Source: a virus
Reading direction: 5' to 3' (one strand)
DNA: 21,922 bases
IMG/VR virus record: IMGVR_UViG_3300042309_001605
Location: 1 to 21,922 of that record
Shown: piece after piece, positions 2,534-21,500 of the stretch
Layout: every line of letters begins with the position of its first letter
How positions within the stretch are numbered: position 1 is the stretch's first letter
Notes under the pieces: generated by a model
Seen by the model: only the letters and a program-made list of their open reading frames with translations
Database searches by the model: none
Told to the model about the DNA's origin: nothing
Translations under genes and position numbers: made by a program

Positions 2534-3259
2534 ATGATATCAAAATTACAACTACAAGCAATTATTGAAAAGTACCATTTAAATGGTCAAATTGAAAATG
2601 TTAAATGGGAAATAAACGCTGATGGAAAGTTAACTATTAACTTTACAGCTCCTACTCGTGAGATGTTAGGGACAGTTACTTATAATGGTTTTCCATTACC
2701 TGAATCTGAAATTGGGATTAATAACACTACACAATTAGATAAACTATTATCTATTACAGGTGGTGATTTAGATCTTGGTTATGCTAAAGAAGGTAGAATA
2801 ATATCTAAACTACTAATAGCAGACAACCAGTTTAATCTAGACTATGCCTTAGCTGACTTATTAACCATTCCTAAAACAGGTAAATATAATGGTTCTGAGG
2901 ATCATGAAATCCAAGTTACAATTGATGATGAAGCAATAACAGCATTAGTTAAAGCTAAAAACGCATTAACAAATAGTGAAAACGTTGTTATTAAGTTAGG
3001 TTTAAACGGTTTAGAATTCACTTTCGGAGGCGATGTTGAATATGCTAATAAAGTTACTTATTCCATCCAAAATCCAACAATAAATGTACCTTCAACATTT
3101 AATTTAGTATATGGTTCTGATTTGTTGAAGGAAATATTAGTCGCCAATAAAGGTTCTGAGTCTGGTACTTTATATATAAATTCAAATGGTTTAATGAAAT
3201 TATCGTTTTTTCATAAAGAATTACAAAGTACTTACTATATTGTCGCAAAAGAACAATAA
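2534..3259 (+). CDS. 45: Probable sliding clamp (T4 gp45-like)
   Basis: This 241-residue protein is most likely the ring-shaped processivity clamp that tethers the polymerase to DNA. The length is close to T4 gp45 (228 residues). The sequence is rich in alternating beta-strand patterns and ends with a strand-like, aromatic tail (LQSTYYIVAKEQ), as expected of a clamp domain. There are no catalytic motifs, and clamps have none. The strongest argument is context: it lies directly after the polymerase, and clamp-loader genes lie further downstream in the same window. In T4 the order is 45-44-62-regA-43, so the order here is rearranged. The ATG at 2534 is preceded by promoter P1. Sequence similarity is not obvious by eye, so the assignment is weaker than for the polymerase. 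A structure or profile comparison would settle it. Confidence 0.7.
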   Translation: MISKLQLQAIIEKYHLNGQIENVKWEINADGKLTINFTAPTREMLGTVTYNGFPLPESEIGINNTTQLDKLLSITGGDLDLGYAKEGRIISKLLIADNQFNLDYALADLLTIPKTGKYNGSEDHEIQVTIDDEAITALVKAKNALTNSENVVIKLGLNGLEFTFGGDVEYANKVTYSIQNPTINVPSTFNLVYGSDLLKEILVANKGSESGTLYINSNGLMKLSFFHKELQSTYYIVAKEQ

Positions 3260-5860: not shown

Positions 5861-5879
5861 TACTATGAATAAAGAATTT
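5861..5879 (+). repeat. 19-nt direct repeat, copy 1 (start region of 5865 gene)
   Basis: TACTATGAATAAAGAATTT is identical to 6118-6136. It covers the start codon and first codons of the gene at 5865. The similarity continues downstream at lower identity and encodes the shared leader peptide. Confidence 0.85.
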
Positions 5880-6116
5880 TATAAAATGCAAAAGGCAGCT
5901 GGTTTGATTACTGAATCAGAATACAAAGAAAGAATGTCTGAAAACACAGGTAAACACCTTGATCAAGAAGCATATATGGATGCGTTAAACCTATTATTTG
6001 ATGCTCTTGGTAATGGTGCTAATGCATATGATGAAACAACTTGGACTGAAGAGGAGAATACTTTAGTAAACGGTATAGCTAATGTTTTAAATAGAGTTGG
6101 AGTTGATATATCTTAA
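5865..6116 (+). CDS. Small protein with capsid-targeting-like leader (candidate internal head protein)
   Basis: The 83-residue product begins MNKEFYKMQKAAGLITES, nearly the same as the next gene (17 of the first 20 residues identical), although the rest differs. The leader ends in ITE. In T4 the prohead protease gp21 cuts after (L/I)-x-E, and internal head proteins carry a short N-terminal capsid-targeting sequence ending this way. Cleavage here would leave an acidic protein of about 66 residues (YMDALNLLFDALGNG, then helical ENTLVNGIANVLNRVGVD). By inference it may be packed into the head and perhaps injected. The enzyme that would cut it is not in this window. An alternative is that the leader is a structural helix shared by paralogues. 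There is no membrane segment or known domain. Confidence 0.8.
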   Translation: MNKEFYKMQKAAGLITESEYKERMSENTGKHLDQEAYMDALNLLFDALGNGANAYDETTWTEEENTLVNGIANVLNRVGVDIS

Positions 6117-6117
6117 T

Positions 6118-6136
6118 TACTATGAATAAAGAATTT
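6118..6136 (+). repeat. 19-nt direct repeat, copy 2 (start region of 6122 gene)
   Basis: Identical to 5861-5879; see that copy. It spans the start of the gene at 6122, pointing to duplication of a leader module in front of unrelated bodies. Confidence 0.85.
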
Positions 6137-6625
6137 CTTAAAATGCAAAAAACAGCTGGCTTAATCACTGAAAGCCAGTATAGAAAATTAACTGAAGAAG
6201 ACGCTAAAATAATGGCCGCCGCTGAAAAAATTGAAGATAAAGTAGAATCAGATCCCTCAATAGAAGCAATGGTTGATAAACTCTCAGATAAAGAAAAATC
6301 TGATCTTCAATCAGCATTAGCTAAATTAGGTATAACACCTAACACTTCTATTGAAACTGCAAAAAAAGAGGTTGAAGATGAAATTGGAAGTGTTGTATCT
6401 GAGATTGATGAAGCTTTAAGTACAAAACAAAAAGTAGCTGATATTACTAAAGCTTTAGGAGTATTATCATATGGTTCAAATCTTGTTCCTTTTCTAAATA
6501 TGTTTTTAATGAAAGCAGTATTTAATGATATGCCTGGTGGCGTAGCATTTTTTTCTGGTCTTGCTCTCTCTGCTGGGGTAGGTGCTGCTTTAATTGGGTT
6601 ATCTAAATTATTAGATGAAAAATAA
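6122..6625 (+). CDS. Leader-bearing protein with hydrophobic C-terminus (candidate internal head or injected protein)
   Basis: The 167-residue product starts MNKEFLKMQKTAGLITES, matching the leader of the preceding gene, with the same candidate (L/I)-x-E site after ITE and another at LTE a few residues later. A charged helical region (about residues 25-100; VDKLSDKEKSDLQSALAKLG, KEVEDEIGSVVSEIDEAL) could form a coiled coil. The C-terminal third has two hydrophobic stretches. One is at about 112-132 (LSYGSNLVPFLNMFLMKAVF). The other is at about 137-160, glycine/alanine-rich (FFSGLALSAGVGAALIGL). Such a tail could insert into a membrane. No known holin or pore family is recognisable. The leader argues for a virion component, and the tail could act during genome entry; both are inference. 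Confidence 0.8.
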   Translation: MNKEFLKMQKTAGLITESQYRKLTEEDAKIMAAAEKIEDKVESDPSIEAMVDKLSDKEKSDLQSALAKLGITPNTSIETAKKEVEDEIGSVVSEIDEALSTKQKVADITKALGVLSYGSNLVPFLNMFLMKAVFNDMPGGVAFFSGLALSAGVGAALIGLSKLLDEK

Positions 6626-6627
6626 TT

Positions 6628-6930
6628 ATGAAAGTATCTGAATTAAAACAAATTATCAAAGAAGAAATCGTTAAAGCATTAGCTGAAAACGAAAGTAAGC
6701 CAACTCATAAATCTAAAGTAGATTGGTATTATATCAATGATAACAGTGACTATCCTGGACCTAAAGGTAGAACAGTCCCTAATGCTAAAGGATTTGATAA
6801 TCCTAAAGACTATAAAGGAACTGAACTTTATATCAAAAAAGGAACTAAAGGATATGTTAGTGGAGGTAAATTTGAAGATAAAGAAGGTAATGATGTTGGA
6901 TACAAAGCTGAATACTTTGAAAAACTATAA
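6628..6930 (+). CDS. Small basic protein with a second type of helical leader
   Basis: The 100-residue product begins MKVSELKQIIKEEIVKALAE, an amphipathic helix of a kind I recall from other large-phage proteins. It ends in LAE, again fitting the T4 gp21 cleavage pattern (L/I)-x-E. Cleavage would leave an approximately 80-residue lysine- and glycine-rich protein. It has a WYYINDNSDYPGPKGR segment and an SH3-like look (ELYIKKGTKGYVSGGKF.DKEGNDVGYKAEYFEKL). Basic mature proteins behind an acidic or amphipathic leader are typical of T4 internal proteins I-III. It starts two bases after the preceding gene and ends the transcription block before the terminator at 6962. The specific function is unknown. 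The second reading frame opened at 6737 is a shadow. Confidence 0.8.
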   Translation: MKVSELKQIIKEEIVKALAENESKPTHKSKVDWYYINDNSDYPGPKGRTVPNAKGFDNPKDYKGTELYIKKGTKGYVSGGKFEDKEGNDVGYKAEYFEKL

Positions 6931-6960: not shown

Positions 6961-6991
6961 TTGGCCTTCGGGCCATTTTTTATTATATTTG
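6961..6991 (+). promoter_or_regulatory. Predicted promoter (P3) for the clamp-loader block
   Basis: TTG at 6961-6963 is followed after 20 nt by TATATTTG at 6984-6991, a full match to TAnnTTTG. The ATG of the clamp-loader gene is at 6997. The TTG sits in the left arm of the terminator hairpin, so the end of one transcript and the start of the next overlap physically. Confidence 0.68.
6962..6981 (+). terminator. Intrinsic terminator after the groEL block
   Basis: TGGCC (6962-6966), the stable loop TTCG, and GGCCA (6971-6975) are followed by six T (6976-6981). The stem is short but GC-rich with a UUCG tetraloop. It lies 31 nt after the stop of the gene at 6628, so it probably ends the transcript that starts at P2. 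Confidence 0.85.
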
Positions 6992-9949: not shown

Positions 9950-11386
9950 ATGAATCAAAGTTTTGCTTATCTTCCTCAGAATGAGAGGAAGAAAATCTTA
10001 CTAATCTGTGATGATATTAGAGTACACTCAGGTGTAGCTACAGTCGCTCGAGAATTAGTATTAAATACAGCCCAACATTTCAATTGGGTAAATGTAGGAG
10101 GAGCTATTAACCACCCTGAACAAGGTAAACGATTAGACTTATCAGCTGATACTAATAGTAATATTGGGTTAACTGATAGTTCAGTTGTATTATACCCAAC
10201 TAACGGATATGGGGATGCTAATTTAGTTAGACAACTGATTAGTATTGAAAAACCAGATGCTATTTTCTTAATCACAGATCCAAGATATTTTATTTGGTTA
10301 TTCCAAATTGAAAATGAGATTAGAAAGAAAATGCCTATCATTTATCTTAACATTTGGGATGACTACCCAGCTCCAATGTATAACAGAGGATATTATGAAT
10401 CATGTGATGCTTTATTAGCTATTTCAAAACAAACTAAAAATATTAATGAATTAGTATTAGGTGATAAAGCTAAGAAAAAATTAATTGAATATGTTCCTCA
10501 TGGATTAAATGAAGAAATATTTAAACCAATTAATAAAACTGATAAAGAATTAATTGAGTTTAAAAAACAATTATTCAAAGGTAAAGAATTTGATTTTGTA
10601 ATGTTCTTTAACTCTAGAAACATTCGTCGCAAACAAATTCCTGATACAATGTTAGCGTATCGTTTGTTTATTGATTCATTAACTGATGAACAAGCAAGAA
10701 AGTGTGCTTTTGTATTACATACTCAAGTAGTAGATGATAATGGAACAGATTTAGAAGCAGTAAGAGAAATGTTATTTGGAAGTGATTCAAAATATAATAT
10801 TATTTTCTCTAATCAAGTGCTAGATCCTAAAGGAATGAATATGTTATATAATTGTTCTGATGTTCAAATCTTATTAACTAATAATGAAGGTTGGGGATTA
10901 AGTTTAACTGAAGCAATTTTAGCAGGTAACCCAATCATTGCGAATGTAACTGGTGGGATGCAAGATCAAATGCGTTTTAGTAAGAAAGGTAAATGGATTG
11001 ACTTTAGTGCTGATTTTCCTTCAAACCATAATGGTACTATCAAAGAACATGGCGAATGGGCCTTCCCAGTATATCCAACTAATAGATCAATTCAAGGTTC
11101 TCCATTAACACCTTATATTTGGGATGATAGATGCAATGCAGAAGACGCAGCAGAACAAATTAAAGCTGTTTATAATTTATCTAAAGAAGAAAGACAAGCA
11201 CGAGGATTAAAAGGTCGTGAATGGGCTTTATCAGATGAAGCAGGATTTACAGGTGAAAAAATGGGTCAAAAAGTTATCAAAACATTAGATAAATTGTTTA
11301 AAACTTGGAAACCAAGAGAAAAATATGAGTTAGTAAATGCAAATGAAACTCAAGATAAAGTAGTACCACACAAATTAGTATATTAA
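9950..11386 (+). CDS. GT4-family glycosyltransferase (GT-B fold)
   Basis: This 478-residue protein probably transfers a sugar from a nucleotide donor to an unknown acceptor. The N-terminal Rossmann domain begins KKILLICDDIRVHSGVATVARELV, with the glycine-containing loop of GT4 enzymes. YVPHGLNEEIFKP links the two domains. The donor-binding motif EGWGLSLTE has Glu313 and Glu321 in the E-x7-E spacing, followed by AGNPIIAN and the GG loop. There is no signal peptide or membrane segment, so it should act in the cytoplasm. It starts 7 nt after the RHH gene and is followed 9 nt later by a second GT4-type gene, with similar architecture but little overall identity. Which sugar is used cannot be read from the sequence. 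Confidence 0.92.
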   Translation: MNQSFAYLPQNERKKILLICDDIRVHSGVATVARELVLNTAQHFNWVNVGGAINHPEQGKRLDLSADTNSNIGLTDSSVVLYPTNGYGDANLVRQLISIEKPDAIFLITDPRYFIWLFQIENEIRKKMPIIYLNIWDDYPAPMYNRGYYESCDALLAISKQTKNINELVLGDKAKKKLIEYVPHGLNEEIFKPINKTDKELIEFKKQLFKGKEFDFVMFFNSRNIRRKQIPDTMLAYRLFIDSLTDEQARKCAFVLHTQVVDDNGTDLEAVREMLFGSDSKYNIIFSNQVLDPKGMNMLYNCSDVQILLTNNEGWGLSLTEAILAGNPIIANVTGGMQDQMRFSKKGKWIDFSADFPSNHNGTIKEHGEWAFPVYPTNRSIQGSPLTPYIWDDRCNAEDAAEQIKAVYNLSKEERQARGLKGREWALSDEAGFTGEKMGQKVIKTLDKLFKTWKPREKYELVNANETQDKVVPHKLVY

Positions 11387-11395
11387 AATAAAGTT

Positions 11396-12703
11396 ATGAG
11401 TAAACCATTGTTTTTTATCTCCTGCCCTATTGACACTTATAGTGGTTATGGAGCACGCTCTCGAGATTTAGTCAGAGCAATTATAGCCACAGACAAATAT
11501 GATGTTAAGGTTATTCCTCAAATGTGGGGTAATACACCTTGGAATTTTATTAATGATAACCCAGAATGGGGATTTTTAAGTCAACATATTTGGGCTCAAC
11601 CACAACTACCTAAACAACCTGAAGTATGGATGCAAATCACTATTCCAAGTGAATTCCAACCAATTGGAAAATTCAATATTGGAGTAACAGCAGGTATTGA
11701 AACAACATTATCACCTGGTGATTGGATTGAAGGGTGTAATAGAATGAATTTAGTATTAACTTCATCTGAGCATTCAAAGAAAACATTTATTGATACTGTA
11801 TTACAAAAAGTAGATCAACGTACAAATCAACCAATTGGGGAAGCTAAAATTGAAAAACCAATTGAAGTATTATTTGAAGGAGCAGATATTAATGTTTATA
11901 AACCACTTGATAAGGTAGATTCATTCCCTGAATTAACTGATATTAAAGAGAAATTTGCATTCTTATTTGTTGGCCATTGGATTAATGGTGATTTAGGAGA
12001 AGATAGAAAAAATGTAGGTTTGTTAATTAAAATATTTTATGAAATATTTAAAAACAAAAAAGACAAACCAGCATTAATCTTAAAAACATCTCAAATGGGT
12101 TCATCATACTTAGATCGAGATGAAATCTTAAGAAAAATTAATTTGATTAAAAAATCAATTAATAGTAAAGATTTACCTAATGTTTATGTTTTACATGGTG
12201 AATTTAGTGATATTGAAATGAATGAGTTATATAATCATCCTAAAATTAAAGCGATGATTAACTTAACTAAAGGTGAAGGATATGGTAGACCATTACTTGA
12301 ATTTAGTTTAACTAAAAAACCAATCATCACAACTAACTGGAGTGGACACACAGATTTCTTAAACCCAGAATTTAATACAATGTTACCTGGTAAATTAACA
12401 GAAGTCCACCCAAGTGCTGCTAATCAATGGTTACTAAAAGACTCGCAATGGTTTTCAGTAGATTTAGGTCATGCTGGGACATCTATCAAAGATGTATTTG
12501 AAGATTATAAAAAATATATTGATGGAGCAAAACGTCAAGCACATAAAAGTAAAACTGAGTTTAGTTGGGATAAAATGAAGGATAAAATTGATGAATTATT
12601 TACTAAATATATTCCTGAGTTCCCAAAACAAGTAGAGTTAAAATTACCTACATTAAAGAAAATTGAATTACCTAAATTACAAAAAGTAGAAAATAATGGA
12701 TAA
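11396..12703 (+). CDS. Second GT4-family glycosyltransferase
   Basis: This 435-residue GT-B enzyme starts PLFFISCPIDTYSGYGARSRDLVRAI, with the acceptor-domain glycine loop SGYGARS. Middle landmarks are VTAGIETT, VLTSSEHSKKTF, VLFEGADINVYKP and FLFVGHWINGD. The donor site reads EGYGRPLLE with Glu294 and Glu302 (E-x7-E), then KKPIITTNWSGHTDFL. It is complete, soluble and probably cytoplasmic. The start is preceded by AATAAAGTTATG, the recurrent initiator-like sequence. The end overlaps the next gene by 8 nt (ATGGATAA). The last 35 residues are a lysine/proline-rich tail (PKQVELKLPTLKKIELPKLQK) that is not part of the fold and may be a contact segment; this is inference. Confidence 0.92.
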   Translation: MSKPLFFISCPIDTYSGYGARSRDLVRAIIATDKYDVKVIPQMWGNTPWNFINDNPEWGFLSQHIWAQPQLPKQPEVWMQITIPSEFQPIGKFNIGVTAGIETTLSPGDWIEGCNRMNLVLTSSEHSKKTFIDTVLQKVDQRTNQPIGEAKIEKPIEVLFEGADINVYKPLDKVDSFPELTDIKEKFAFLFVGHWINGDLGEDRKNVGLLIKIFYEIFKNKKDKPALILKTSQMGSSYLDRDEILRKINLIKKSINSKDLPNVYVLHGEFSDIEMNELYNHPKIKAMINLTKGEGYGRPLLEFSLTKKPIITTNWSGHTDFLNPEFNTMLPGKLTEVHPSAANQWLLKDSQWFSVDLGHAGTSIKDVFEDYKKYIDGAKRQAHKSKTEFSWDKMKDKIDELFTKYIPEFPKQVELKLPTLKKIELPKLQKVENNG

Positions 12704-13154
12704 AATTATTAATTGTCCTAAATCAGGAGGTGACTTGTGTTATGAAACACAGGTCACACCTGAAATAACAAATTGGATGTCATTATCATGTGGGTTCTGG
12801 ACTAACTCATTTATGGCAGAAGGAAGTGAATTTTATAATGAACAAATGGAAATACTTCCTGAGTTATATAAAGCATTAGCTTGGATTGATCCTGAAACTA
12901 AATTAACTTGGTTACCACAAACAATCAATGAACCTAAACAAGGTATGGTGTTTGCTAATGGAACTGGGGTTGATAATTGGAAGTGGGCAGCTGTAAAAGC
13001 AATTCCTGTGACTGAAGAAGAAAAACATAAATTCCCAATCCCAAAACAACCAGGCAAATTTTACGAGTACAGAATGGATATGGAGTCACTTCAACATTTT
13101 GATGAAAGAGATTTTATAGAGGCTTTAGATTACATTGGCTTATTGACAAAGTAA
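12696..13154 (+). CDS. Conserved-looking phage protein of unknown function
   Basis: The 152-residue product is rich in tryptophan and aromatic residues and has no recognisable catalytic motif. It opens with NCPKSGGDLCYE. That is what is left of a zinc-ribbon style CPxCGG knuckle in which one cysteine has become serine, so metal binding is doubtful. GFWTNSFM, ALAWIDPETKLTWLPQT and KWAAVKAIPVTEEEK suggest a compact beta-rich domain. The C-terminal helix is acidic (DERDFIEALDYIGLL). The start overlaps the stop of the GT4 gene by 8 nt, so it is translated with it and may modify or accompany the glycosyltransferases, or be a structural protein. There is no signal peptide or membrane segment. A promoter overlaps its last codons. 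Confidence 0.8.
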   Translation: MDKIINCPKSGGDLCYETQVTPEITNWMSLSCGFWTNSFMAEGSEFYNEQMEILPELYKALAWIDPETKLTWLPQTINEPKQGMVFANGTGVDNWKWAAVKAIPVTEEEKHKFPIPKQPGKFYEYRMDMESLQHFDERDFIEALDYIGLLTK

Positions 13155-13165
13155 TATTATATTAG
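13135..13165 (+). promoter_or_regulatory. Predicted promoter (P4) for the first sugar block
   Basis: TTG at 13135-13137 is followed after 20 nt by TATATTAG at 13158-13165, one base off TAnnTTTG. The ATG is at 13171. The stretch 13155-13173 matches 6981-6999 at 18 of 19 bases, although the genes behind them are unrelated. Confidence 0.68.
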
Positions 13166-13170
13166 GTTAT

Positions 13171-13788
13171 ATGAAAATTAGTTATGCAATTACAGTTTGT
13201 AATGAACTGGAAGAAGTAAGTCGTTTACTTAATTTCCTACATCAATATAAACGACCTGAAGATGAAATTTGTGTTTTATTAGATAAACCAAAAGCATCTC
13301 AACAATTGATAGATGAGTTACATTATTGGCAGTCTAGAAATATTATTACTCTAAGAGAAAGTTCATTCCAAGGACATTTTGCTGATTGGAAAAATGAACT
13401 AACAAGAATATGTTCTGGTGATTACATCTTCCAAATTGATGCTGATGAAATACCTAATGATACTTTAATAGAAAATCTACCAGCAATATTAGAAAATAAT
13501 GTAGATGTAGTTCTAGTACCTAGAGTAAACACAGTTGAAGGAATTACTCCTCAACATATTCAAATGTGGGGTTGGAAACAAAATGAAAAAGGATGGATAC
13601 AATGGCCTGATCCACAGTGGAGAATATATAAAAATAATCCTGATATCAAATGGAAGAATAAACTCCATGAAGTATTAGATGGATATAAAACATATTCAAA
13701 TCTACCTGAAATGGAAGAATACGCTTTGTATCATCCTAAAACAATAGGAAAACAAGAATCACAAAATAATTTCTATAGTAAACTATGA
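13171..13788 (+). CDS. GT2-family glycosyltransferase
   Basis: This 205-residue GT-A enzyme begins MKISYAITVCNELEEVSRLL, the usual nucleotide-binding strand and loop of family 2. The metal-binding DxD is DAD at residues 90-92 (FQIDADEIP). The C-terminal WKNKLHEVLDGY resembles the W..LHE motif of the SunS/WaaE-like GT2 subgroup, whose members glycosylate peptides or LPS cores. It is short for GT2 but appears complete, and has no membrane segment. It shares 4 nt (ATGA) with gmd, so translation is coupled. The donor sugar cannot be deduced. Confidence 0.9.
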   Translation: MKISYAITVCNELEEVSRLLNFLHQYKRPEDEICVLLDKPKASQQLIDELHYWQSRNIITLRESSFQGHFADWKNELTRICSGDYIFQIDADEIPNDTLIENLPAILENNVDVVLVPRVNTVEGITPQHIQMWGWKQNEKGWIQWPDPQWRIYKNNPDIKWKNKLHEVLDGYKTYSNLPEMEEYALYHPKTIGKQESQNNFYSKL

Positions 13789-14771
13789 AAAAAGCATTAA
13801 TCACAGGTATTAATGGTCAAGATGGATCTTATTTAGCTGAGTTCTTACTAGACAAAGAATATGAAGTGTGGGGAATATTAAAACGTAATTCTGTAGCTGA
13901 GAATCAAACAGCAAGAATTAATGATGAAATTTATCCTAAATTAAAATTAGAGTATGCTGATCTAACTGATCTAGCATCTCTAATTAGGGTAATATCTAAA
14001 GTACAACCTGATGAACATTATAATCTAGCAGCCCAATCTCATGTTAGAATTAGTTTTGACCAACCATTGTATACAGCAAATGCCACTGCTATAGGTGCTT
14101 TAAACATATTAGAGGCAGTTAGAATGGTATCACCTAATACTAAAGTATACCAGGCTAGTAGTTCAGAAATGTTTGGTAATAGTATAGATAAAGATGGTTA
14201 CCAAAGAGAAACAACACCAATGAACCCAGTTTCACCTTATGGATGTGCTAAAGTATTTGCTTATAATATAAGTAGAAATTATAGACATTCTTATGATATG
14301 TTTGTTTCTAATGGGGTACTATTTAATCATGAGTCTCCAAGACGAGGAACTAATTTTGTAACAAATAAAGTTTGTAAAGAAGCAGTTAAGATTAAATTAG
14401 GATTATCTAATGAGTTAAAATTAGGTAATTTAGATGCTACTCGAGATTGGGGTCATGCTAAAGATTATGTTAGAGCAATGTGGGAAATACTTCAATTAGA
14501 CAAGCCGGATGACTTTGTTTGTGCGACAGGTATCTCCCACTCAGTTAGAGAACTTTGTGAGTATGTATTTTCTTCATTAGATTTAAATTATAAAGAATAT
14601 GTAACTCAAGATGAAAAGTTTTTACGACCTGAAGAATTACATAATTTAAAAGGTGACTCATCTAAATTAACTAAAGCAACAAATTGGACTCATGATTATA
14701 CATTTGAGTCTATGTTAGATGAAATGACAAAATATTGGCTAAACTATTATAAAAATGAAAATATTCGCTAA
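13785..14771 (+). CDS. gmd: GDP-mannose 4,6-dehydratase
   Basis: This 328-residue SDR enzyme converts GDP-D-mannose to GDP-4-keto-6-deoxy-D-mannose, the branch point for fucose, rhamnose and perosamine. The start ALITGINGQDGSYLAEFLL matches the Gmd glycine-rich motif (Gly8, Gly11, Gly14), and NLAAQSHV and SSSEMFG follow. Ser126 and Glu128 fit the catalytic Thr/Ser and Glu. Tyr152 and Lys156 in SPYGCAK are the catalytic pair. FNHESPRRGTNFVT is diagnostic for the family, and LGNLDATRDWGHAKDYV completes it. E. coli Gmd has 373 residues, so this version is compact. It is close to cellular enzymes and all key residues are present. It overlaps its neighbours by 4 and 17 nt. Confidence 0.97.
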   Translation: MKKALITGINGQDGSYLAEFLLDKEYEVWGILKRNSVAENQTARINDEIYPKLKLEYADLTDLASLIRVISKVQPDEHYNLAAQSHVRISFDQPLYTANATAIGALNILEAVRMVSPNTKVYQASSSEMFGNSIDKDGYQRETTPMNPVSPYGCAKVFAYNISRNYRHSYDMFVSNGVLFNHESPRRGTNFVTNKVCKEAVKIKLGLSNELKLGNLDATRDWGHAKDYVRAMWEILQLDKPDDFVCATGISHSVRELCEYVFSSLDLNYKEYVTQDEKFLRPEELHNLKGDSSKLTKATNWTHDYTFESMLDEMTKYWLNYYKNENIR

Positions 14772-15567
14772 GTTTTTTGATTATAAAACTTTTGAACAAA
14801 AGTTAGAAGAGTATAAACATATTGACTTTTCTTTATTTGTAGATGATGTTCCTCAAAAACAAGAAGATTTATCTTCAATTAATATAATTGTATTACAAGA
14901 ACCTAATGAGTATTTTGGGATGCATGATTGGGTAATACAAAATAAAGATCTATTCACAGTTATATTAACTTGGAATGACAAGATTTTAAATAAATGTGAT
15001 AACTCATTATTTTTACCATTTGGGCACTCATGGTTCAAACCAGATCAATATTTAAAAGATCACCCAAAAGAATTTAAAATATCTCACTTATGTGGGGTAT
15101 TACTAAAATCATATGGTCATCAAATGAGACATGAGATTTTAGATAGAGAAGATGAGTTTAAAATACCTACTCAGTTTTATAAAACAATAGGGGATAGACA
15201 TAATCTAGAAGATGCTAGAATAGGTAAAGAAACTGTGTTTGGAAATACCCAATATGGAATAGCAATTGAAAATTTTTCTCATAGAGGTTATTTTACAGAA
15301 AAAATATTAGATTGTTTTTTAATGAAAACTATACCTGTATATAATGGTTGTACTAGTATAGGTGATTTTTTTAATGATGAAGGTATAATAAAGTTTGGAA
15401 ATGTAGATGATCTTATTTATATTATTAATCAATTAGATGAGAATTATTATAACAATCATAAAGATATAGTTGAAGAAAATTATAAATTAGCTCTTCAATA
15501 TATTGATTATGAGCAAACTATCTCAAATAAAGTAATAGAAATATTTAAACACAATAAGTTATCATAA
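14755..15567 (+). CDS. GT10 fucosyltransferase-like enzyme
   Basis: This 270-residue protein has the hallmark of alpha-1,3/4-fucosyltransferases (GT10). GIAIENFSHRGYFTEKILDCF contains Glu172-Asn173 and Thr181-Glu182-Lys183, then TIPVYNG, corresponding to the FENS...YVTEKL...VPVY.G signature that binds GDP-fucose. The N-terminal acceptor domain (IIVLQEPNEYFG, LFLPFGHSW) is reduced and divergent. It lies directly behind gmd, overlapping it by 17 nt, which suggests that the GDP-deoxyhexose made by the cassette is its donor. There is no membrane anchor. It could use GDP-fucose or a related sugar; that depends on what the epimerase and reductase genes downstream make. Confidence 0.88.
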   Translation: MKIFAKFFDYKTFEQKLEEYKHIDFSLFVDDVPQKQEDLSSINIIVLQEPNEYFGMHDWVIQNKDLFTVILTWNDKILNKCDNSLFLPFGHSWFKPDQYLKDHPKEFKISHLCGVLLKSYGHQMRHEILDREDEFKIPTQFYKTIGDRHNLEDARIGKETVFGNTQYGIAIENFSHRGYFTEKILDCFLMKTIPVYNGCTSIGDFFNDEGIIKFGNVDDLIYIINQLDENYYNNHKDIVEENYKLALQYIDYEQTISNKVIEIFKHNKLS

Positions 15568-16115
15568 TGGAAATACTTCAATCTAATATATTCCCTGAAG
15601 TAAAAATATTCATATCTAAAGCATATGAAGATGATAGAGGTTATTTCACTGAAACTTTTAATTCAACAATTCAAAATGAATTGGGAGTTACATTCTATCA
15701 AGATAATCATTCTAAATCTAAAAAGAATGTGATTAGAGGAATTCATTACCAATGGGACAAACCAATGGGAAAATTATGTAGAGTGGTAAAAGGAGCAGGT
15801 TTAGATATATTAGTAGACTTACGCCATACTTCTCCTACATATGGTCAATCTGAGACAGTTTACTTATCAGAAGATAATTTTAAACAAGTATGGGTGCCTG
15901 AGGGTTTTGGTCATGCTTTCTTATCATTAGTAAATGATACCCATTTATGTTACAAATGCTCAGCTTTACATAATGGAAATAATGAAGGAAGTATTTACCC
16001 ATTTGACCCAACTTTAAATATTTCTTTCCCAATATCTGAAACTGATGCCATCCTATCAGAAAAAGATAAAAATTCTCAAAATTTTGAAACTTATAAATTA
16101 AATCCTAAATTTTAA
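15567..16115 (+). CDS. rfbC: RmlC/RfbC-type nucleotide-sugar 3,5-epimerase
   Basis: This 182-residue cupin resembles dTDP-4-keto-6-deoxyglucose 3,5-epimerase. DRGYFTETFN, RGIHYQ with the catalytic base His60, LVDLRHTSPTYG, and WVPEGFGHAFLSL are all present, and Tyr129 in CYKC matches the general acid. The usual second tyrosine region (KTTDYY) is replaced by CSALHNG, so substrate or extent of epimerisation may differ. No dTDP-sugar gene (RmlA or RmlB) is in the window. The neighbouring nucleotide sugar is GDP-based, so the substrate is more likely GDP-linked, as in the Campylobacter GDP-heptose epimerases; this is inference. It overlaps the GT10 gene by one base and lies 2 nt before an SDR gene. 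Confidence 0.93.
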   Translation: MEILQSNIFPEVKIFISKAYEDDRGYFTETFNSTIQNELGVTFYQDNHSKSKKNVIRGIHYQWDKPMGKLCRVVKGAGLDILVDLRHTSPTYGQSETVYLSEDNFKQVWVPEGFGHAFLSLVNDTHLCYKCSALHNGNNEGSIYPFDPTLNISFPISETDAILSEKDKNSQNFETYKLNPKF

Positions 16116-16117
16116 AA

Positions 16118-17116
16118 ATGAAAAAATTATTGTTAGTAGGAGGCGCGGGCTATATAGGAACTAGATTATCTAACCACCTATCAGAAAAAGATTATAATAT
16201 TACAGTGGTAGATAACTTTTGGTTTGGAGATTTTATTGATAATAAAGTTAATAAAATAAAGAAAAACTTATGGGAATTAACTCCTAGTGATTTAGAAGGA
16301 TATGACGCGGTATTATTTTTAGCAGGATTATCTAATGATCCTATGGCTATGTTTAGACCCGATCTTAATTTTATAGAGAATTCATCTGCACCTGTATATC
16401 TAGCTTTTATAGCTAAACAGGCTGGGGTAAAGCGATTTATAGGCGCTAGTTCATGTAGTGTATACGGGTATACCAAAAACAAAACGCTTAACGAAAATAG
16501 CGTTGTTAAGCCCACTTATGCATATGGTATATCTAAATTACAGTTCGAACAAGGTCTAATGACATTAGAAGATGAAAACTTTAGACCTATATTGTTTAGA
16601 AAAGGAACTGTAGGTGGTTGGTCTCCTAAAATGAGATATGATTTAGTAGTTAATACAATGTTTAAAAGTGCTTTAACTACAGGTAAAATAACTGTTAATA
16701 ATTCTAAATTATGGAGACCTCTTATTGATATAAGAGATGTAATTCAAGGATATGAAAAAGCTATTGAAGCGGATTTAGACATAACTGGTATATATAATTT
16801 ATCTGGAGTTAATCTTACTATAGGTGATTTAGGTAAATCAATACATCAAACATTAACTAATTATGGTCATGACATTAAATTAGAGATGCTAAATAACCCA
16901 GACGTAAGAAATTATAAAGTATCTACCTCTAAAATTGAAGATGAATTAGGATTTAAAGCATTATATCACCCTATAGATTCATTAAATGAAATTATATCTA
17001 ATATAGATGTTAACAATTATAATTTTAATGAGGATATATACTATAACATTAATATATTTAAACAAGTTTTAAGTAATGAAAATACTAATAACCGGGGGTT
17101 CGGGACTACTAGGTAG
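16118..17116 (+). CDS. NAD-dependent SDR sugar epimerase/dehydratase
   Basis: This 332-residue extended SDR has the GGAGYIG NAD loop (residues 8-14), the sequence LFLAGLSNDP, ASSCSVYG, and the catalytic Tyr136-Lys140 pair (YGISK). A later WRPLIDIRDVIQGY segment matches the UDP-glucose epimerase-like group. The substrate is unclear; C4 or C2 epimerisation or a dehydration is possible. Its last 41 nt (17076-17116) overlap the start of the next gene in another frame, so its final 14 residues (ending NNRGFGTTR) are coded together with the next gene's NAD-loop. The tail looks like a late extension and not part of the fold. No membrane segment is seen. Confidence 0.9.
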   Translation: MKKLLLVGGAGYIGTRLSNHLSEKDYNITVVDNFWFGDFIDNKVNKIKKNLWELTPSDLEGYDAVLFLAGLSNDPMAMFRPDLNFIENSSAPVYLAFIAKQAGVKRFIGASSCSVYGYTKNKTLNENSVVKPTYAYGISKLQFEQGLMTLEDENFRPILFRKGTVGGWSPKMRYDLVVNTMFKSALTTGKITVNNSKLWRPLIDIRDVIQGYEKAIEADLDITGIYNLSGVNLTIGDLGKSIHQTLTNYGHDIKLEMLNNPDVRNYKVSTSKIEDELGFKALYHPIDSLNEIISNIDVNNYNFNEDIYYNINIFKQVLSNENTNNRGFGTTR

Positions 17117-17774
17117 TAATCTAATTAAGATATTAAAAGATAATCATCAAATATTTAGCCCAACAAGCAAAGAACTAAACATAACTAATTTTGTTGCTGT
17201 AGCTAATTATATAAATAATACTAGACCTGACATTGTAATACATTGCGCAGCTATAGCTAAATTCTTAATAGCTGAAAATAAACCTATTGATACTATTGAT
17301 ACTAATATTATAGGAACATGCAATGTAGTAAAGGCTTGTATGTTATATGATGCTAAAATGGTTTATATATCTACATCACATGTATTTGATGGTAAAAAAG
17401 GAAATTACTCAGTTGATGATAGTATTAATCCACTAACCAAATACTCAAAATCTAAGGTAGCTGGTGAGATGGTTACTTCAATTTATCATAACTCATTAAT
17501 AATAAGAACTGAGTTTTGTGAAGAAACATTTCCATTTGAGACAGCTTATATTGATAAATTCTCTTCAAAAGAATATATTGATGTTTTAGCCCCAATGATA
17601 GCTAAAAAATGCATTAGTGATCAAATTGGTATAAGTCATGTAGGTGGTCCTAGAAGATCATTTTATGAGTTTGGAAAATTAAGAAATCCAAATGTTAAAG
17701 AAGGAACTGTTAAGAATTTAATATCAACTAGTGCAATTCCAATCTTAATAGACACTAGTTTAATATCTGATTAA
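17076..17774 (+). CDS. Short RmlD-like SDR (nucleotide-sugar 4-reductase)
   Basis: This 232-residue protein starts KILITGGSGLLGSNLIKIL, with the GxSGxxG dinucleotide loop, and has VIHCAAIAKF, YISTSHVFDG and the catalytic Tyr123-x3-Lys127 (YSKSK). These are typical of RmlD, which reduces 4-keto-6-deoxy sugars at C4 using NADPH. RmlD proteins usually have about 290 residues; the C-terminal substrate domain is cut down here but HVGGPRRSFYEFGK keeps the core. Together with Gmd and the RmlC-type enzyme it could convert a GDP-4-keto sugar to its final form, standing in for GDP-fucose synthase. It overlaps the upstream gene by 41 nt, and only one base separates it from the next. Confidence 0.88.
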   Translation: MKILITGGSGLLGSNLIKILKDNHQIFSPTSKELNITNFVAVANYINNTRPDIVIHCAAIAKFLIAENKPIDTIDTNIIGTCNVVKACMLYDAKMVYISTSHVFDGKKGNYSVDDSINPLTKYSKSKVAGEMVTSIYHNSLIIRTEFCEETFPFETAYIDKFSSKEYIDVLAPMIAKKCISDQIGISHVGGPRRSFYEFGKLRNPNVKEGTVKNLISTSAIPILIDTSLISD

Positions 17775-17775
17775 T

Positions 17776-18693
17776 ATGAAAAAAACTAATATAAAACTTA
17801 TTCTCCATCTAATGCCTTGGGAGATAGATCATTTATTTTTCTTCTTTACCCAATTGAAGAAATCTAAATACCACTTACCAGATGATGTGTCAATAACAAT
17901 TGAATCATCATTAAATTTATCTAGTTTTATAATTAATTGGGAAGAGAGTAAAATTCCAAAACAGTTTTTTATTGACAAATATAATTTTGTTTCTCAATTA
18001 TTAAGTGATTATACTCATATAAAAAAGATATATGACGGAGACAAATGGTATGGTCATCTAGATATGCAACGAGAATCAGTAGATCCTGAAATGGATTATT
18101 ATATAGTTGCAATGCCTGATGTTAATTTTAGTGAGTATTTATTAGCTTATTATGTTGAAGCAATTAAGAGTATAAAAAATGAATATTTTCTAATTTGCCC
18201 TCAAATTGCTAAATTATGGGACTCATCTTGGGACGTGATAACAGACCCAGACTGTATGGATATTCCATATGATAAATGGCAAACTATAGATATATTTGAT
18301 ATAATCACTAAACATACTAACCCAACACAACCAGTTAAATTAATGCCAGTACCAACAAGTAAATTTGCTGGGTGGTTTGACATCTGTAATAAAAAATTCT
18401 ATGAGGAATTAGTCCCAGTTTGGGATGAATGGGAAGGGTATGGTGGATGGGATTATTATTCAATGTTAGTATCAGACACTTACAAACATATGGGAGGTGA
18501 TTTTCAACAATATTTGCTAGGAGGACAAACAGTAGTAGAATACTCTACAGGACCTAGTACTCAAGACATAGGTAAATATTATAAAAATTATTTAGTATTA
18601 AATAAGCTACCTTATAATCAAGGTGAAATGTTTAAAACAAAAGTAATAGATTATGCTAAAGAAAGATTAAATAAACTTGGAAACATTAAATAA
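17776..18693 (+). CDS. Glycosyltransferase-like (GT-A) protein, tentative
   Basis: The 305-residue product has no clear family match by eye. FAGWFDICNKKFYEELVPVWDEWEGYGGWDYY in its middle resembles the acceptor motif of galactosyl-/GalNAc-transferases, which read GC....F....WDE.F.GWG.ED (shown here only by its key residues: G, W, FDICNK, WDEW, GWDY). ICPQIAKLWDSSWD and the N-terminal strand ILHLMPWEIDHL are compatible with a GT-A fold. A clean DxD is not obvious, though DPD and DPEMDYY occur. It is soluble. It lies one base after the RmlD-like gene and ends the first sugar block before promoter P5. A polysaccharide-modifying role is an inference from its position among sugar genes. Confidence 0.62.
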   Translation: MKKTNIKLILHLMPWEIDHLFFFFTQLKKSKYHLPDDVSITIESSLNLSSFIINWEESKIPKQFFIDKYNFVSQLLSDYTHIKKIYDGDKWYGHLDMQRESVDPEMDYYIVAMPDVNFSEYLLAYYVEAIKSIKNEYFLICPQIAKLWDSSWDVITDPDCMDIPYDKWQTIDIFDIITKHTNPTQPVKLMPVPTSKFAGWFDICNKKFYEELVPVWDEWEGYGGWDYYSMLVSDTYKHMGGDFQQYLLGGQTVVEYSTGPSTQDIGKYYKNYLVLNKLPYNQGEMFKTKVIDYAKERLNKLGNIK

Positions 18694-18707
18694 ATTATAT
18701 ATATTAA
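18677..18707 (+). promoter_or_regulatory. Predicted promoter (P5) for the second sugar block
   Basis: TTG at 18677-18679 is followed after 20 nt by TATATTAA at 18700-18707, two bases off TAnnTTTG, and the ATG is at 18712. This is the only gap of more than two bases in the sugar cassette between 13171 and the right edge. Confidence 0.6.
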
Positions 18708-18711
18708 GTAT

Positions 18712-19413
18712 ATGAGAACATTAACAGAAATAGCTGATTCATTCCAATGGGATGATGGAAAAGGAAATGGTATTGATAAAGGAACACTTCGAAACGCAGG
18801 TCATAGTTATACCTATTTTTATGATAAATTATTTTCTCCATTAAGAGATAAACCAATTCTTATGTTAGAAATAGGAGTATCTGGGGGTGGTTCATTAAAA
18901 ATGTGGTATGAATATTTTCCTAATGCTACTATTATAGCCTTAGATATTAATGATGAAAGAGAACTTAGTAATGATAGAGTATATGTCTATCAACTTGATC
19001 AATCAAATGAAACTGAGTTAAAAAACTTTGTCACACAATGTAAAAAGAATGGATATGAATTTGATATTATTATTGATGATGGAAGTCATCACATGTGTGA
19101 TCAACAAATAACTTTAGGTTATTTATTTCCTATATTAAAATCTCAAGGAATATATGTGATTGAAGATTTACATACTTCATTAGCTGATAATGGTTTTCCA
19201 CTTTATGGTAAATTTTTAGATATCCAAGAAAATAGAAAAAACACCACATTGTTTTATTTAATGGAATCACTTAATAGTGTATATTTGAATGATGAACAAA
19301 ATGATTATTTGAATAAAAATATTGAAACTATTGATATCCATAATAGATTTAATCCAAAACAAGAACTTCAATATAAAGGAAGAAGTATAACATCATCAAT
19401 AATAAAAAAATAA
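18712..19413 (+). CDS. SAM-dependent O-methyltransferase-like protein (MycE/TylF-type)
   Basis: This 233-residue class I methyltransferase resembles sugar O-methyltransferases of macrolide and polysaccharide pathways. HSYTYFYDKLF, LEIGVSGGGSLKMW (SAM-binding glycine loop), IIALDI with the acidic end of strand 2, and DIIIDDGSHHMCDQ (Asp122, Asp123, His126, His127; probable metal ligands) are seen, then GIYVIEDLHTS. The fold is complete; the C-terminus ends in a basic tail. It probably methylates a hydroxyl of the sugar made by the cassette. The gene comes first after promoter P5 and is one base before the aminotransferase-like gene. Confidence 0.88.
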   Translation: MRTLTEIADSFQWDDGKGNGIDKGTLRNAGHSYTYFYDKLFSPLRDKPILMLEIGVSGGGSLKMWYEYFPNATIIALDINDERELSNDRVYVYQLDQSNETELKNFVTQCKKNGYEFDIIIDDGSHHMCDQQITLGYLFPILKSQGIYVIEDLHTSLADNGFPLYGKFLDIQENRKNTTLFYLMESLNSVYLNDEQNDYLNKNIETIDIHNRFNPKQELQYKGRSITSSIIKK

Positions 19414-19414
19414 T

Positions 19415-20056
19415 ATGAAAAACGTATACGATATTACAAATGAATTTGAAAGAAAATTAGCAGAATATACTGGAGCTAAGTATGCTGTAGCATTAGATAA
19501 TCAAAGTAATGCTTTATTCTTATCATTATACTATGAAAACCATATTAAGAAAAGCATTACATCTGACTCTGTAACAATCCCTTCTCGAACTTATCCTTCA
19601 GTACCATGTGAAATTATACACGCTGGGTTGAAAGTAAAATTCAAACCAGTTAAGGGTAAAACACTTAAGGGAGCTTACAATTTAGAAGGAAGTAATGTCT
19701 GGGATGCGGCTTTATCATTCACACATAATATGTACAAACCAGAAACACACATGTGTATCTCATTTACAGGTCCATATAAACATTTTAAATTAAGTAAAGG
19801 TGGAGCTATATTAACTGATGATCATGATGCTTACTTATGGTTTAGAAGAGCTCGTTATAGTGGAAGAAGAGAATGTTCTTATCATGATGATAATTTTGAT
19901 ATGTTGGGGTGGAATTTCTATATGATGCCTGAATTAGCAGCTAGAGGAGTATTACTTATGGGCCAATTTTATAATACAGATGGTACTCCAAAACATAATG
20001 AAGATCTAGAATTACCATATCCAGATTTATCTAAATTTGAAATTTATACTAAATGA
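19415..20056 (+). CDS. Half-length DegT/DnrJ/EryC1-type aminotransferase-like protein
   Basis: This 213-residue protein matches the N-terminal part of PLP-dependent sugar aminotransferases, which normally have about 370 residues. FERKLAEYTGAKYAVALDNQSNAL corresponds to the cofactor phosphate region, Asp97 in WDAALSF to the aspartate that binds the pyridine nitrogen, and Lys122 in TGPYKHFKLSKGGAI is the best candidate for the Schiff-base lysine. The middle linker is shortened and the small C-terminal domain is missing after MPELAARGVLL. No frameshift is visible: the next gene begins in the last 4 nt, so the short form looks genuine. Whether it is active is unknown. A role in making a GDP-4-amino sugar such as perosamine from the Gmd product is possible. 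Confidence 0.85.
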   Translation: MKNVYDITNEFERKLAEYTGAKYAVALDNQSNALFLSLYYENHIKKSITSDSVTIPSRTYPSVPCEIIHAGLKVKFKPVKGKTLKGAYNLEGSNVWDAALSFTHNMYKPETHMCISFTGPYKHFKLSKGGAILTDDHDAYLWFRRARYSGRRECSYHDDNFDMLGWNFYMMPELAARGVLLMGQFYNTDGTPKHNEDLELPYPDLSKFEIYTK

Positions 20057-20718
20057 AAAATATAGTTTTAATAGGAGGAGGTAATCAAGCTCACTACACA
20101 ATAGACATCATTGAAAAAGAAGGTAAATATAATATTGTAGGTATTATAGATTCTATTCAAGAAATTGGTAGTGAAAGATTTGGATATAAAATTTTAGGTA
20201 GACAAGAAAACTTAAAAGAATTAATCTTAACTTGTAATATAGAAGGAGGAATAATTTCTATAGGAGATAATTGGTCTCGATATTATGTTTACAATCAAAT
20301 AGTAGATATTGTTCCCGATTTTGAATTTGTAAATGCTATTCACCCATCAGTTGTGATAGGAAATACTACTGAATTAGGAGTAGGAATTGTAGCTATGGCT
20401 GGATGTATTTTTAATCCTAAAGCTAAAATAGGTAATTTTACTTTCTTCGCTACAGGTGCACAAGTAGAACATGATAATGAGATAGGAGATTTTGCAAGCA
20501 TATCAGCTGGCTCATTAACTGGAGGGTATGTTAAACTAGGAAAATTCTCAGCAATTACACTAGGTGTGACAGTTATAGATAGAATTGAGATAGGTGAAAA
20601 TACAGTAGTAGGGGCAGGAAGTTTAGTAATAAAACCACTACCTGATAATGTTTTAGCATATGGCAACCCAGCTAAAATTATTAGAGATAGAGTTAAAGGT
20701 GAAAAATTTTTAAAATGA
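20053..20718 (+). CDS. PglD/NeuD-type sugar O- or N-acyltransferase
   Basis: The 221-residue product has an N-terminal Rossmann-like domain (NIVLIGGGNQAHYTIDII) and a left-handed beta-helix of hexapeptide repeats from about residue 95 (IHPSVVIGNTTELGVGI, NEIGDFASISAG, IEIGENTVVGAGSL). The catalytic histidine is His140 in VEHDNEIG. The C-terminal AYGNPAKIIRD is typical of the family. Relatives acetylate an amino sugar on a nucleotide carrier. Coupling by 4 nt (ATGA) to the DegT-like gene fits an amination-then-acetylation pair, as in GDP-N-acetylperosamine synthesis. The acyl donor is presumably acetyl-CoA. It overlaps the dioxygenase gene by 4 nt as well. Confidence 0.93.
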   Translation: MKNIVLIGGGNQAHYTIDIIEKEGKYNIVGIIDSIQEIGSERFGYKILGRQENLKELILTCNIEGGIISIGDNWSRYYVYNQIVDIVPDFEFVNAIHPSVVIGNTTELGVGIVAMAGCIFNPKAKIGNFTFFATGAQVEHDNEIGDFASISAGSLTGGYVKLGKFSAITLGVTVIDRIEIGENTVVGAGSLVIKPLPDNVLAYGNPAKIIRDRVKGEKFLK

Positions 20719-21500
20719 CAAGCATAGAATCTTTAGACTTAAAAACAAAAGGATATACTATATTAAGAAATAGAGTTCCTAAAAAATGGTTGGATACCTT
20801 ATCTAACGCTATAGATAATTCTTTCATTCAACATAGAAATATTCAATTAAAAAATAATAATGATATTAAAACAGATGGAGTAGCACTTCATGTTTTATTA
20901 AGTGACCCCATTTTTCTTGATTTTTTAAAATACCTACAACAGAGTGGTGTTATTCAAGAACTCCAAGATGAATATTTTCATAGTAAATGTATTTTAAACT
21001 CATTTAGCGCTTTAAATAATCTACCAAATCAACCAAATTTCTCAGCTGTAGTTCATAGAGACCTTAGATTTTACTCAGGTGATTTCCCAGTTATGATTAA
21101 TTGTTTAGTTATGGTAGATGATTTTACTATAGAAAATGGAGGAACATATTTACTTACTAGTTCTCATTTAGAAGAAAGAAAACCATCAGATGATGAATTC
21201 TTCAGTAACGCTATTCAAGCTACAGGAAAGAGAGGAGATATATTATTATTTAATGCTAATGTATGGCATTCATCTGCTCCTAATAAAACTCAAGATAATC
21301 GAAGAGCAATACCTATTACTATTAGTAAGTCATTTATGAAACAATTACTAGACTATCCTAGAGCTATAGGGTATGATAAAATAGATAATTTTGATTATGA
21401 GTTCCAACAATTATTAGGATACCATTCTCGAGTACCAGCTTCATTAGAAGAATGGTATCAACCTGAAGATAAACGTTTTTATAAGAAAAATCAAGACTAA
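20715..21500 (+). CDS. Phytanoyl-CoA dioxygenase (PhyH)-like Fe(II)/2-oxoglutarate oxygenase
   Basis: This 261-residue protein has the 2-His-1-carboxylate iron site as His114 and Asp116 in VVHRDLRF, and His185 in NVWHSSAPN. Arg196 or Arg197 in QDNRRAI is placed to hold 2-oxoglutarate. NGGTYLLTSSH and GDILLFNANVWH are typical of PhyH. Such enzymes hydroxylate small molecules, sugars or lipids. Its place after the acyltransferase suggests a tailoring step on a nucleotide sugar or glycan, an inference. A 4-nt overlap and a one-base overlap link it to its neighbours. No signal peptide or membrane segment is seen. Confidence 0.9.
   Translation: MTSIESLDLKTKGYTILRNRVPKKWLDTLSNAIDNSFIQHRNIQLKNNNDIKTDGVALHVLLSDPIFLDFLKYLQQSGVIQELQDEYFHSKCILNSFSALNNLPNQPNFSAVVHRDLRFYSGDFPVMINCLVMVDDFTIENGGTYLLTSSHLEERKPSDDEFFSNAIQATGKRGDILLFNANVWHSSAPNKTQDNRRAIPITISKSFMKQLLDYPRAIGYDKIDNFDYEFQQLLGYHSRVPASLEEWYQPEDKRFYKKNQD

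Follow-up and report, generated by a model that had tools for sequence, protein, structure and literature searches.

In phage T4, internal proteins (IPs), which co-purify with gp22, are targeted to the core by propeptides of 10–19 residues, and the cleavage by gp21 takes place after L/I-x-E (PMC9026906). In phage P1, the first ~30 residues of DarB suffice to send a foreign protein to the head (PMC9024508), and ejection proteins of the SPN3US/phiKZ type carry N-terminal propeptides, some of 20 and 24 residues, which are cut by the prohead protease gp245 (PMC10052503). Here, we describe three consecutive small genes of an uncultured T4-like phage, of which two begin with one type of short leader (leader A) and the third with another (leader B).

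The arrangement resembles the T4 capsid targeting sequence (CTS), the gp21-cut leader of IPI, IPII, IPIII and Alt (PMC9026906), in that a short N-terminal leader is common to small, here putative, head proteins with divergent bodies, in that the leader ends in L/I-x-E and in that the phages concerned have an S77 prohead protease and a gp22-type scaffold. However, the T4 CTS (MKTYQEFIAE) and the present leaders (MNKEFLKMQKLAGLITE or MKxSELKQIIKEEI) have no sequence likeness beyond L/I-x-E, and a reading of both sequences gave no sign of homology to the IP/Alt CTS (MKTYQEFIAEA) apart from that motif. Unlike T4, the present system has two interchangeable leader types and many more bodies, which are mostly acidic (median pI 4.5 for leader-A proteins), and its leader core is shared with the scaffold C-terminus, whereas T4 gp22 begins MLKEQLIAEA, so that any likeness would lie at the opposite end. 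We conclude that the leaders work like T4 capsid targeting at the level of the system, with the targeting itself inferred, and that they are non-homologous by sequence and attached to bodies outside the internal-protein families. P1 DarB differs in being one large protein, and P1 is not known to have a separate scaffold. The SPN3US/phiKZ type is similar in having protease-removed N-terminal propeptides on head proteins, the cleavage being an inference in our case, but its motif is A-x-E rather than L/I-x-E and most of its propeptides exceed 100 residues.

The DNA analyzed (hereafter, the window) is the IMG/VR fragment IMGVR_UViG_3300042309_001605, positions 1–21,922. Its genes include those for a DNA polymerase, the clamp loader, GroES/GroEL and an exonuclease, as well as a long run for glycan synthesis. 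The three small genes are placed between GroEL and the clamp loader; head genes are absent from this 21.9-kb fragment. It probably belongs to a T4-like clade whose isolate relative is Flavobacterium phage immuto, and its host is probably among the Flavobacteria. An Immutovirus-like clade would be marked by the head gene order and by a similar succession of GroES/EL, PD-(D/E)XK nuclease and glycan genes. Immuto has the head order gp20-(67/68)-21-22-23 and the GroES/EL-nuclease-glycosyltransferase run, the window has the GroEL-to-glycan run, and the protease-22-23 order is seen in G021, a contig of 160.8 kb whose polymerase is 98% identical to that of the window. The window polymerase matches phrog_262, whereas immuto is annotated with A-family polymerases.

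Gene 1 (5865..6116, + strand) encodes a leader A protein of 83 aa with an acidic body (mature pI 4.1). Its leader, residues 1–17 (MNKEFYKMQKAAGLITE; 5865..5915, +), has a single L/I-x-E site, at E17, and a weaker further site, MSE, at residue 26. Gene 2 (6122..6625, +) encodes a leader A protein of 167 aa (mature pI 4.5–4.6) that is predicted to be all-helical and has a hydrophobic C-terminal region (segment at residues ~139–164); its leader, residues 1–25 (MNKEFLKMQKTAGLITESQYRKLTE; 6122..6196, +), contains L/I-x-E at residues 15–17 and 23–25, that is, E17 and E25. Gene 3 (6628..6930, +) encodes a leader B protein of 100 aa with a basic body (mature pI 8.7) predicted to form a small SH3-like beta-barrel, and its helical leader, residues 1–20 (MKVSELKQIIKEEIVKALAE; 6628..6687, +), ends in LAE and carries sites at E12 and E20. 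An intrinsic-terminator-like hairpin, TGGCC-TTCG-GGCCA followed by a T-run (6962..6975, +), closes the three-gene block.

The products of genes 1 and 2 are identical at 17 of their first 20 residues and differ in their bodies. A 19-nt repeat lies over the start of gene 1 (5861..5879, +), with a second identical copy at 6118..6136 (+), and sits within a 55-nt block of 87% identity between the two gene starts. Because six of the nine codon differences within the first 20 codons are synonymous, the similarity of the two leaders is held at the protein level, and a repeat acting as DNA, namely as a shared control site or a recombination track, was ruled out on the same ground. A previous sequence-only reading had given the coordinates and reading frames of the three genes, the 17 shared residues with the 19-nt repeat and differing bodies, the other helical leader of gene 3 ending in LAE, and acidic, membrane-active-looking and basic mature products; all of these held, the last being borne out by the pI values and the hydrophobic segment of gene 2. 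Its claim that the leaders end in (L/I)-x-E also held, with the refinement that genes 2 and 3 have two such sites each.

The AlphaFold model of the gene 2 product was of low confidence (pLDDT 61). In that of gene 3, a linker joins a helix at residues 3–20 to a confidently modeled beta-barrel body, which starts near residue 27. A fold search with this model returned weak SH3-like matches at most (Z of 4.8 for the best, and every Foldseek E at 0.8 or above), and we therefore read no function from the fold. The window gene bodies were not recognized by Pfam or PHROGs, and neither the gene 2 body with its hydrophobic C-terminal region nor the gene 3 barrel can be assigned a function. Searches of named phages with gene 2, gene 3 and leader B found nothing relevant; with leader A, relatives of immuto were the sole matches, and immuto gp083 (111675–112139) has the leader MKKQILSEQFRRMQKLAGIITE, a further leader gene of this phage being located at 25061–25456. 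An orthologue of gene 2 is present in G021 (99795–100307, –).

Both leaders proved to be modules found on unrelated bodies, as the sequence-only reading had suggested should be checked. Leader A (MNKEFLKMQKLAG-ITE) was carried by at least 189 proteins (median 145 aa) in 94 unrelated body clusters among the IMG/VR loci analyzed; this is a lower bound, from a first search combined with a second that imposed no condition after LAG. Leader B (MKxSELKQIIKEEIxKxLxE) was carried by 149 proteins in 108 body clusters. Because leader A recurs on so many proteins elsewhere, a chance origin of the likeness between genes 1 and 2 is excluded. In seven genomes (1551 ORFs), 24 of the 27 matches to the leader A core were at a protein N- or C-terminus, and a genome has a handful of leader A genes at most. 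Among the bacterial genomes of 84,980 species, the leader A pattern matched five times; four fell by chance in other proteins or in a short ORF of doubtful reality, and only the fifth looks like a leader, belonging to a phage head cluster carried by a Flavobacteriaceae MAG. Bacterial genomes are thus practically devoid of leader A. The Pfam and PHROGs matches of the 94 representative bodies, at the thresholds used, included no internal-protein family. The leaders are mutually related, as are the scaffolds considered below, and our counts are not of independent events.

The same body can also change its leader. The gene 3 body is found behind leader B in the window and its relatives, behind leader A at four loci (L034, L079, L122 and L124) and without a leader at one (L227), and the body family of gene 1 occurs elsewhere fused behind other leader-A domains. 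Since one body occurs behind either leader, leaders A and B are exchangeable. The shared gene 3 body begins just after L-A-E, L-T-E or L-N-E, and the junction therefore coincides with the expected cut site. These body swaps indicate that the functional end of leader A lies nearer the second site, near residue 25, than at ITE alone. Modularity and leader swapping are shown at the sequence level; the role of each body is inferred.

We examined the L/I-x-E motif in an unbiased leader A set, in which nothing was required after LAG. Among the 117 leaders that continue past LAG, [LIV]xE started 0–3 residues beyond it in 112, compared with a background of 5.8% from the same test further downstream; the corresponding binomial figure, 7e-131, overstates the significance, as the sequences are related. 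The motif takes various forms (ITE, INE, LNE, ISE, VNE, IVE and LGE) and its spacing varies too. Such drift, with only the L/I-x-E pattern kept, matches the prediction for a protease site. A second [LIV]xE followed within 14 residues in 55% of leaders A (background 16%), and in leader B the motif occupied one exact offset in 105 of 149 proteins (background about 3%, three offsets together). Two large leader-A proteins lacked L/I-x-E after LAG. The constraint on the motif is thus shown, and it supports the link to gp21-like cleavage proposed in the sequence-only reading; actual cleavage remains inferred. As a separate observation, proteins of 877–932 aa with a leader-A start and no L/I-x-E directly after LAG were encountered at G021:9992-12790 (L286), L033 and L101, and that of G021 is unknown to PHROGs.

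The leader A core also ends the gp22-like scaffold. We picked the scaffold by position, as the gene between the protease and the capsid gene, which is the place of gp22 in the T4 and immuto order, and in 29 of 29 scaffolds read the C-terminus had the form ..R[MFW]xxLA.. (for example, ..SRWQKLAGIIK, ..ARMQRLAGLRK, ..LRMQKLAGII and ..RMQKLAGII-stop), without the ITE part. The leader-A profile matched these tails mostly weakly (6–10 bits, E about 0.05–1.6), with 25 bits in one genome (G025). We consider homology between leader A and the scaffold tail likely, and convergence is not excluded. What was observed that bears on a possible binding of the leader to the core is the shared tail motif, and the binding partner is inferred. 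In three genomes (G023, G024 and G034), the scaffold tail has the variant form ..RMRELAFGKK, and a cargo leader of the form ..FEHMQKLAFG.. was seen at L301, L011, L075 and L102. This possible co-variation is suggestive; because the cargo proteins form a single orthologous family, and because these genomes have LAG leaders as well, we did not use it as proof.

A gp21-like protease, whose presence the sequence-only reading had left to be checked, was found in relatives and not in the window fragment, and the S77 evidence for the window phage thus comes from these relatives. In the G021 contig, a gene for a head maturation protease (phrog_207, E=4.6e-56) is accompanied by those for a major head protein (phrog_138) and a terminase; in immuto, the S77 protease is gp070. 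An S77 protease (PF03420, gp21-type) was present in 30 of 48 records selected by leader or polymerase, and in 16 of the 17 of those that were at least 120 kb long. Many of the S77-negative records are fragments and no baseline from random phage contigs was available, so presence is shown and enrichment is not. Leader genes also cluster with head genes: they lie between the protease and the scaffold in G005, G008, G014, G021, G030, G044 and the contig of the Flavobacteriaceae MAG (L517). In G021, the interval holds one leader A gene, and in G044 it holds three of leader B.

We conclude that the three genes very likely encode head cargo of the internal-protein kind, whose scaffold-like capsid-targeting leaders the prohead protease would remove. 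No virion proteomics or cleavage data stand behind this reading, in which cleavage, packaging and injection are all inferences. Leader A (..F-x-R/K-M-Q-K-x-A-G-I/L plus L/I-x-E) resembles the peptide at the C-terminus of the gp22-like core scaffold; leader B (SELKQIIKEEIxKxLxE), with which it is interchangeable, would be another tag leading along the same route. While the prohead assembles, a leader would tether its cargo to the core or shell by making the contact that the scaffold tail uses, and the S77 (gp21-type) protease would then cut after L/I-x-E and free the mature body inside the head. The fast-changing bodies may be delivered into the host along with the DNA, a step that we favor slightly by analogy with T4 IPI and Alt, and one that fits the rapid change of the bodies. 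The packing in the head and injection put forward in the sequence-only reading are supported as an interpretation, whereas virion presence and injection are still inferred; evidence beyond that reading came from the leader A core at the scaffold C-terminus, leader swapping on the same body and the leader genes between protease and scaffold. A bolder reading, toward which we lean with some reserve, is a clade-wide import code mimicking the scaffold, in which the scaffold C-terminal peptide or a second tag is pasted onto any gene and the product is released by the protease.

Alternatively, the leader proteins might belong to the prohead core, as T4 gp67/gp68 do, and help to form the head or set its size before the protease degrades them, instead of being injected effectors. 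Some leader genes do lie inside the protease-scaffold interval, one coiled-coil protein has a B-like N-terminus and an A-type C-terminus, and T4 core proteins are likewise cut at L/I-x-E (PMC9026906). However, the bodies are very diverse and patchy in distribution (94 and 108 clusters), unlike conserved core parts, and they swap leaders and can occur without one. Moreover, L/I-x-E does not occur within the gene 3 body, which is predicted to be a folded barrel, and the window genes lie by GroEL and the clamp-loader genes, outside the head cluster. We therefore regard this alternative as unlikely.

Two further explanations fare worse. Leader A might be an oligomerization module like Pfam SHOCT (PF09851), which is likewise a short terminal module, with ITE being a helix cap and not a cut site. 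Gene 1 (E=0.014) and five of the 94 proteins (best 0.0047) match SHOCT weakly, and the wording of the pattern, G-(L/I)-I-T-E-x-E-(F/Y), is loosely similar. Yet the matches are few and all weak, that of gene 1 scoring 15.5 bits against a Pfam curated cut-off of 27; the unbiased leaders vary (INE, LNE, ISE, LGE, IVE) and shift by 0–3 residues with only [LIV]xE kept, which is unlike a fixed fold; and leader B keeps L-x-E without any such pattern. SHOCT is thus a very improbable account, though oligomerization and cleavage could conceivably coexist. It might also be proposed that the leaders have nothing to do with the head and act elsewhere in the infected cell, for instance in sorting or in forming complexes, with L/I-x-E and the scaffold likeness being coincidental. 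The lack of virion data and of known families among the bodies leaves room for this, but the tail shared by 29 of 29 scaffolds, the enrichment of L/I-x-E, the S77 protease in nearly all large relatives and the leader genes within the head cluster make it highly implausible. Head cargo with removable targeting leaders remains the reading that we prefer.

Phage proteins that are packed in the head or injected normally stay unknown without mass spectrometry, and a leader readable in the sequence would flag about 200 candidate virion protein families in environmental phages, whose small genes almost all lack a known function. If the bolder reading were true, the leaders would label dozens of unknown fast-changing virion effectors straight from sequence. 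The scaffold-tail likeness suggests how capsid targeting may work or evolve, a point that PMC9026906 keeps general as an affinity for the core, and leaders A and B could serve as delivery tags for Flavobacterium phages. We found no prior description of either leader in the literature searched, which mostly excluded subscription papers.

Some minor observations concern the leader genes. A coiled-coil family (G021:12817-13332 (L286), L009, L031, L051, L054, L072, L075, L102, L120 and L121) starts in a way that resembles leader B (LRSIIRESI..) and bears a leader-A module at the C-terminus or close to it, as if bridging both tag types. A family of 56–62 aa (L517, L044, L083, L089 and L094) is barely more than leader A plus one helix; its member at L517 (MAG contig CANGUP010000043.1) is flanked directly by the prohead protease and scaffold genes. 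In a 293-kb phage contig (G038:251000-258000; L530), about seven small leader-B-like genes stand beside the prohead protease.

Others concern the remainder of the window. A long run of glycosyltransferase, nucleotide-sugar and dioxygenase-like genes (9950–21500) resembles in position the glycan run of immuto at 49–60 kb. The gene after the polymerase (2534–3259) has a weak PCNA C-terminal match (E 0.085) and possibly encodes a gp45-like clamp. In relatives, the polymerase match extends over ~3.0–3.3 kb instead of 2.36 kb at five loci (L223, L226, L244, L247 and L249) and stops near residue 491 at three others (L243, L245 and L246), which hints at an insertion at a fixed place, such as an intron, intein or homing gene.
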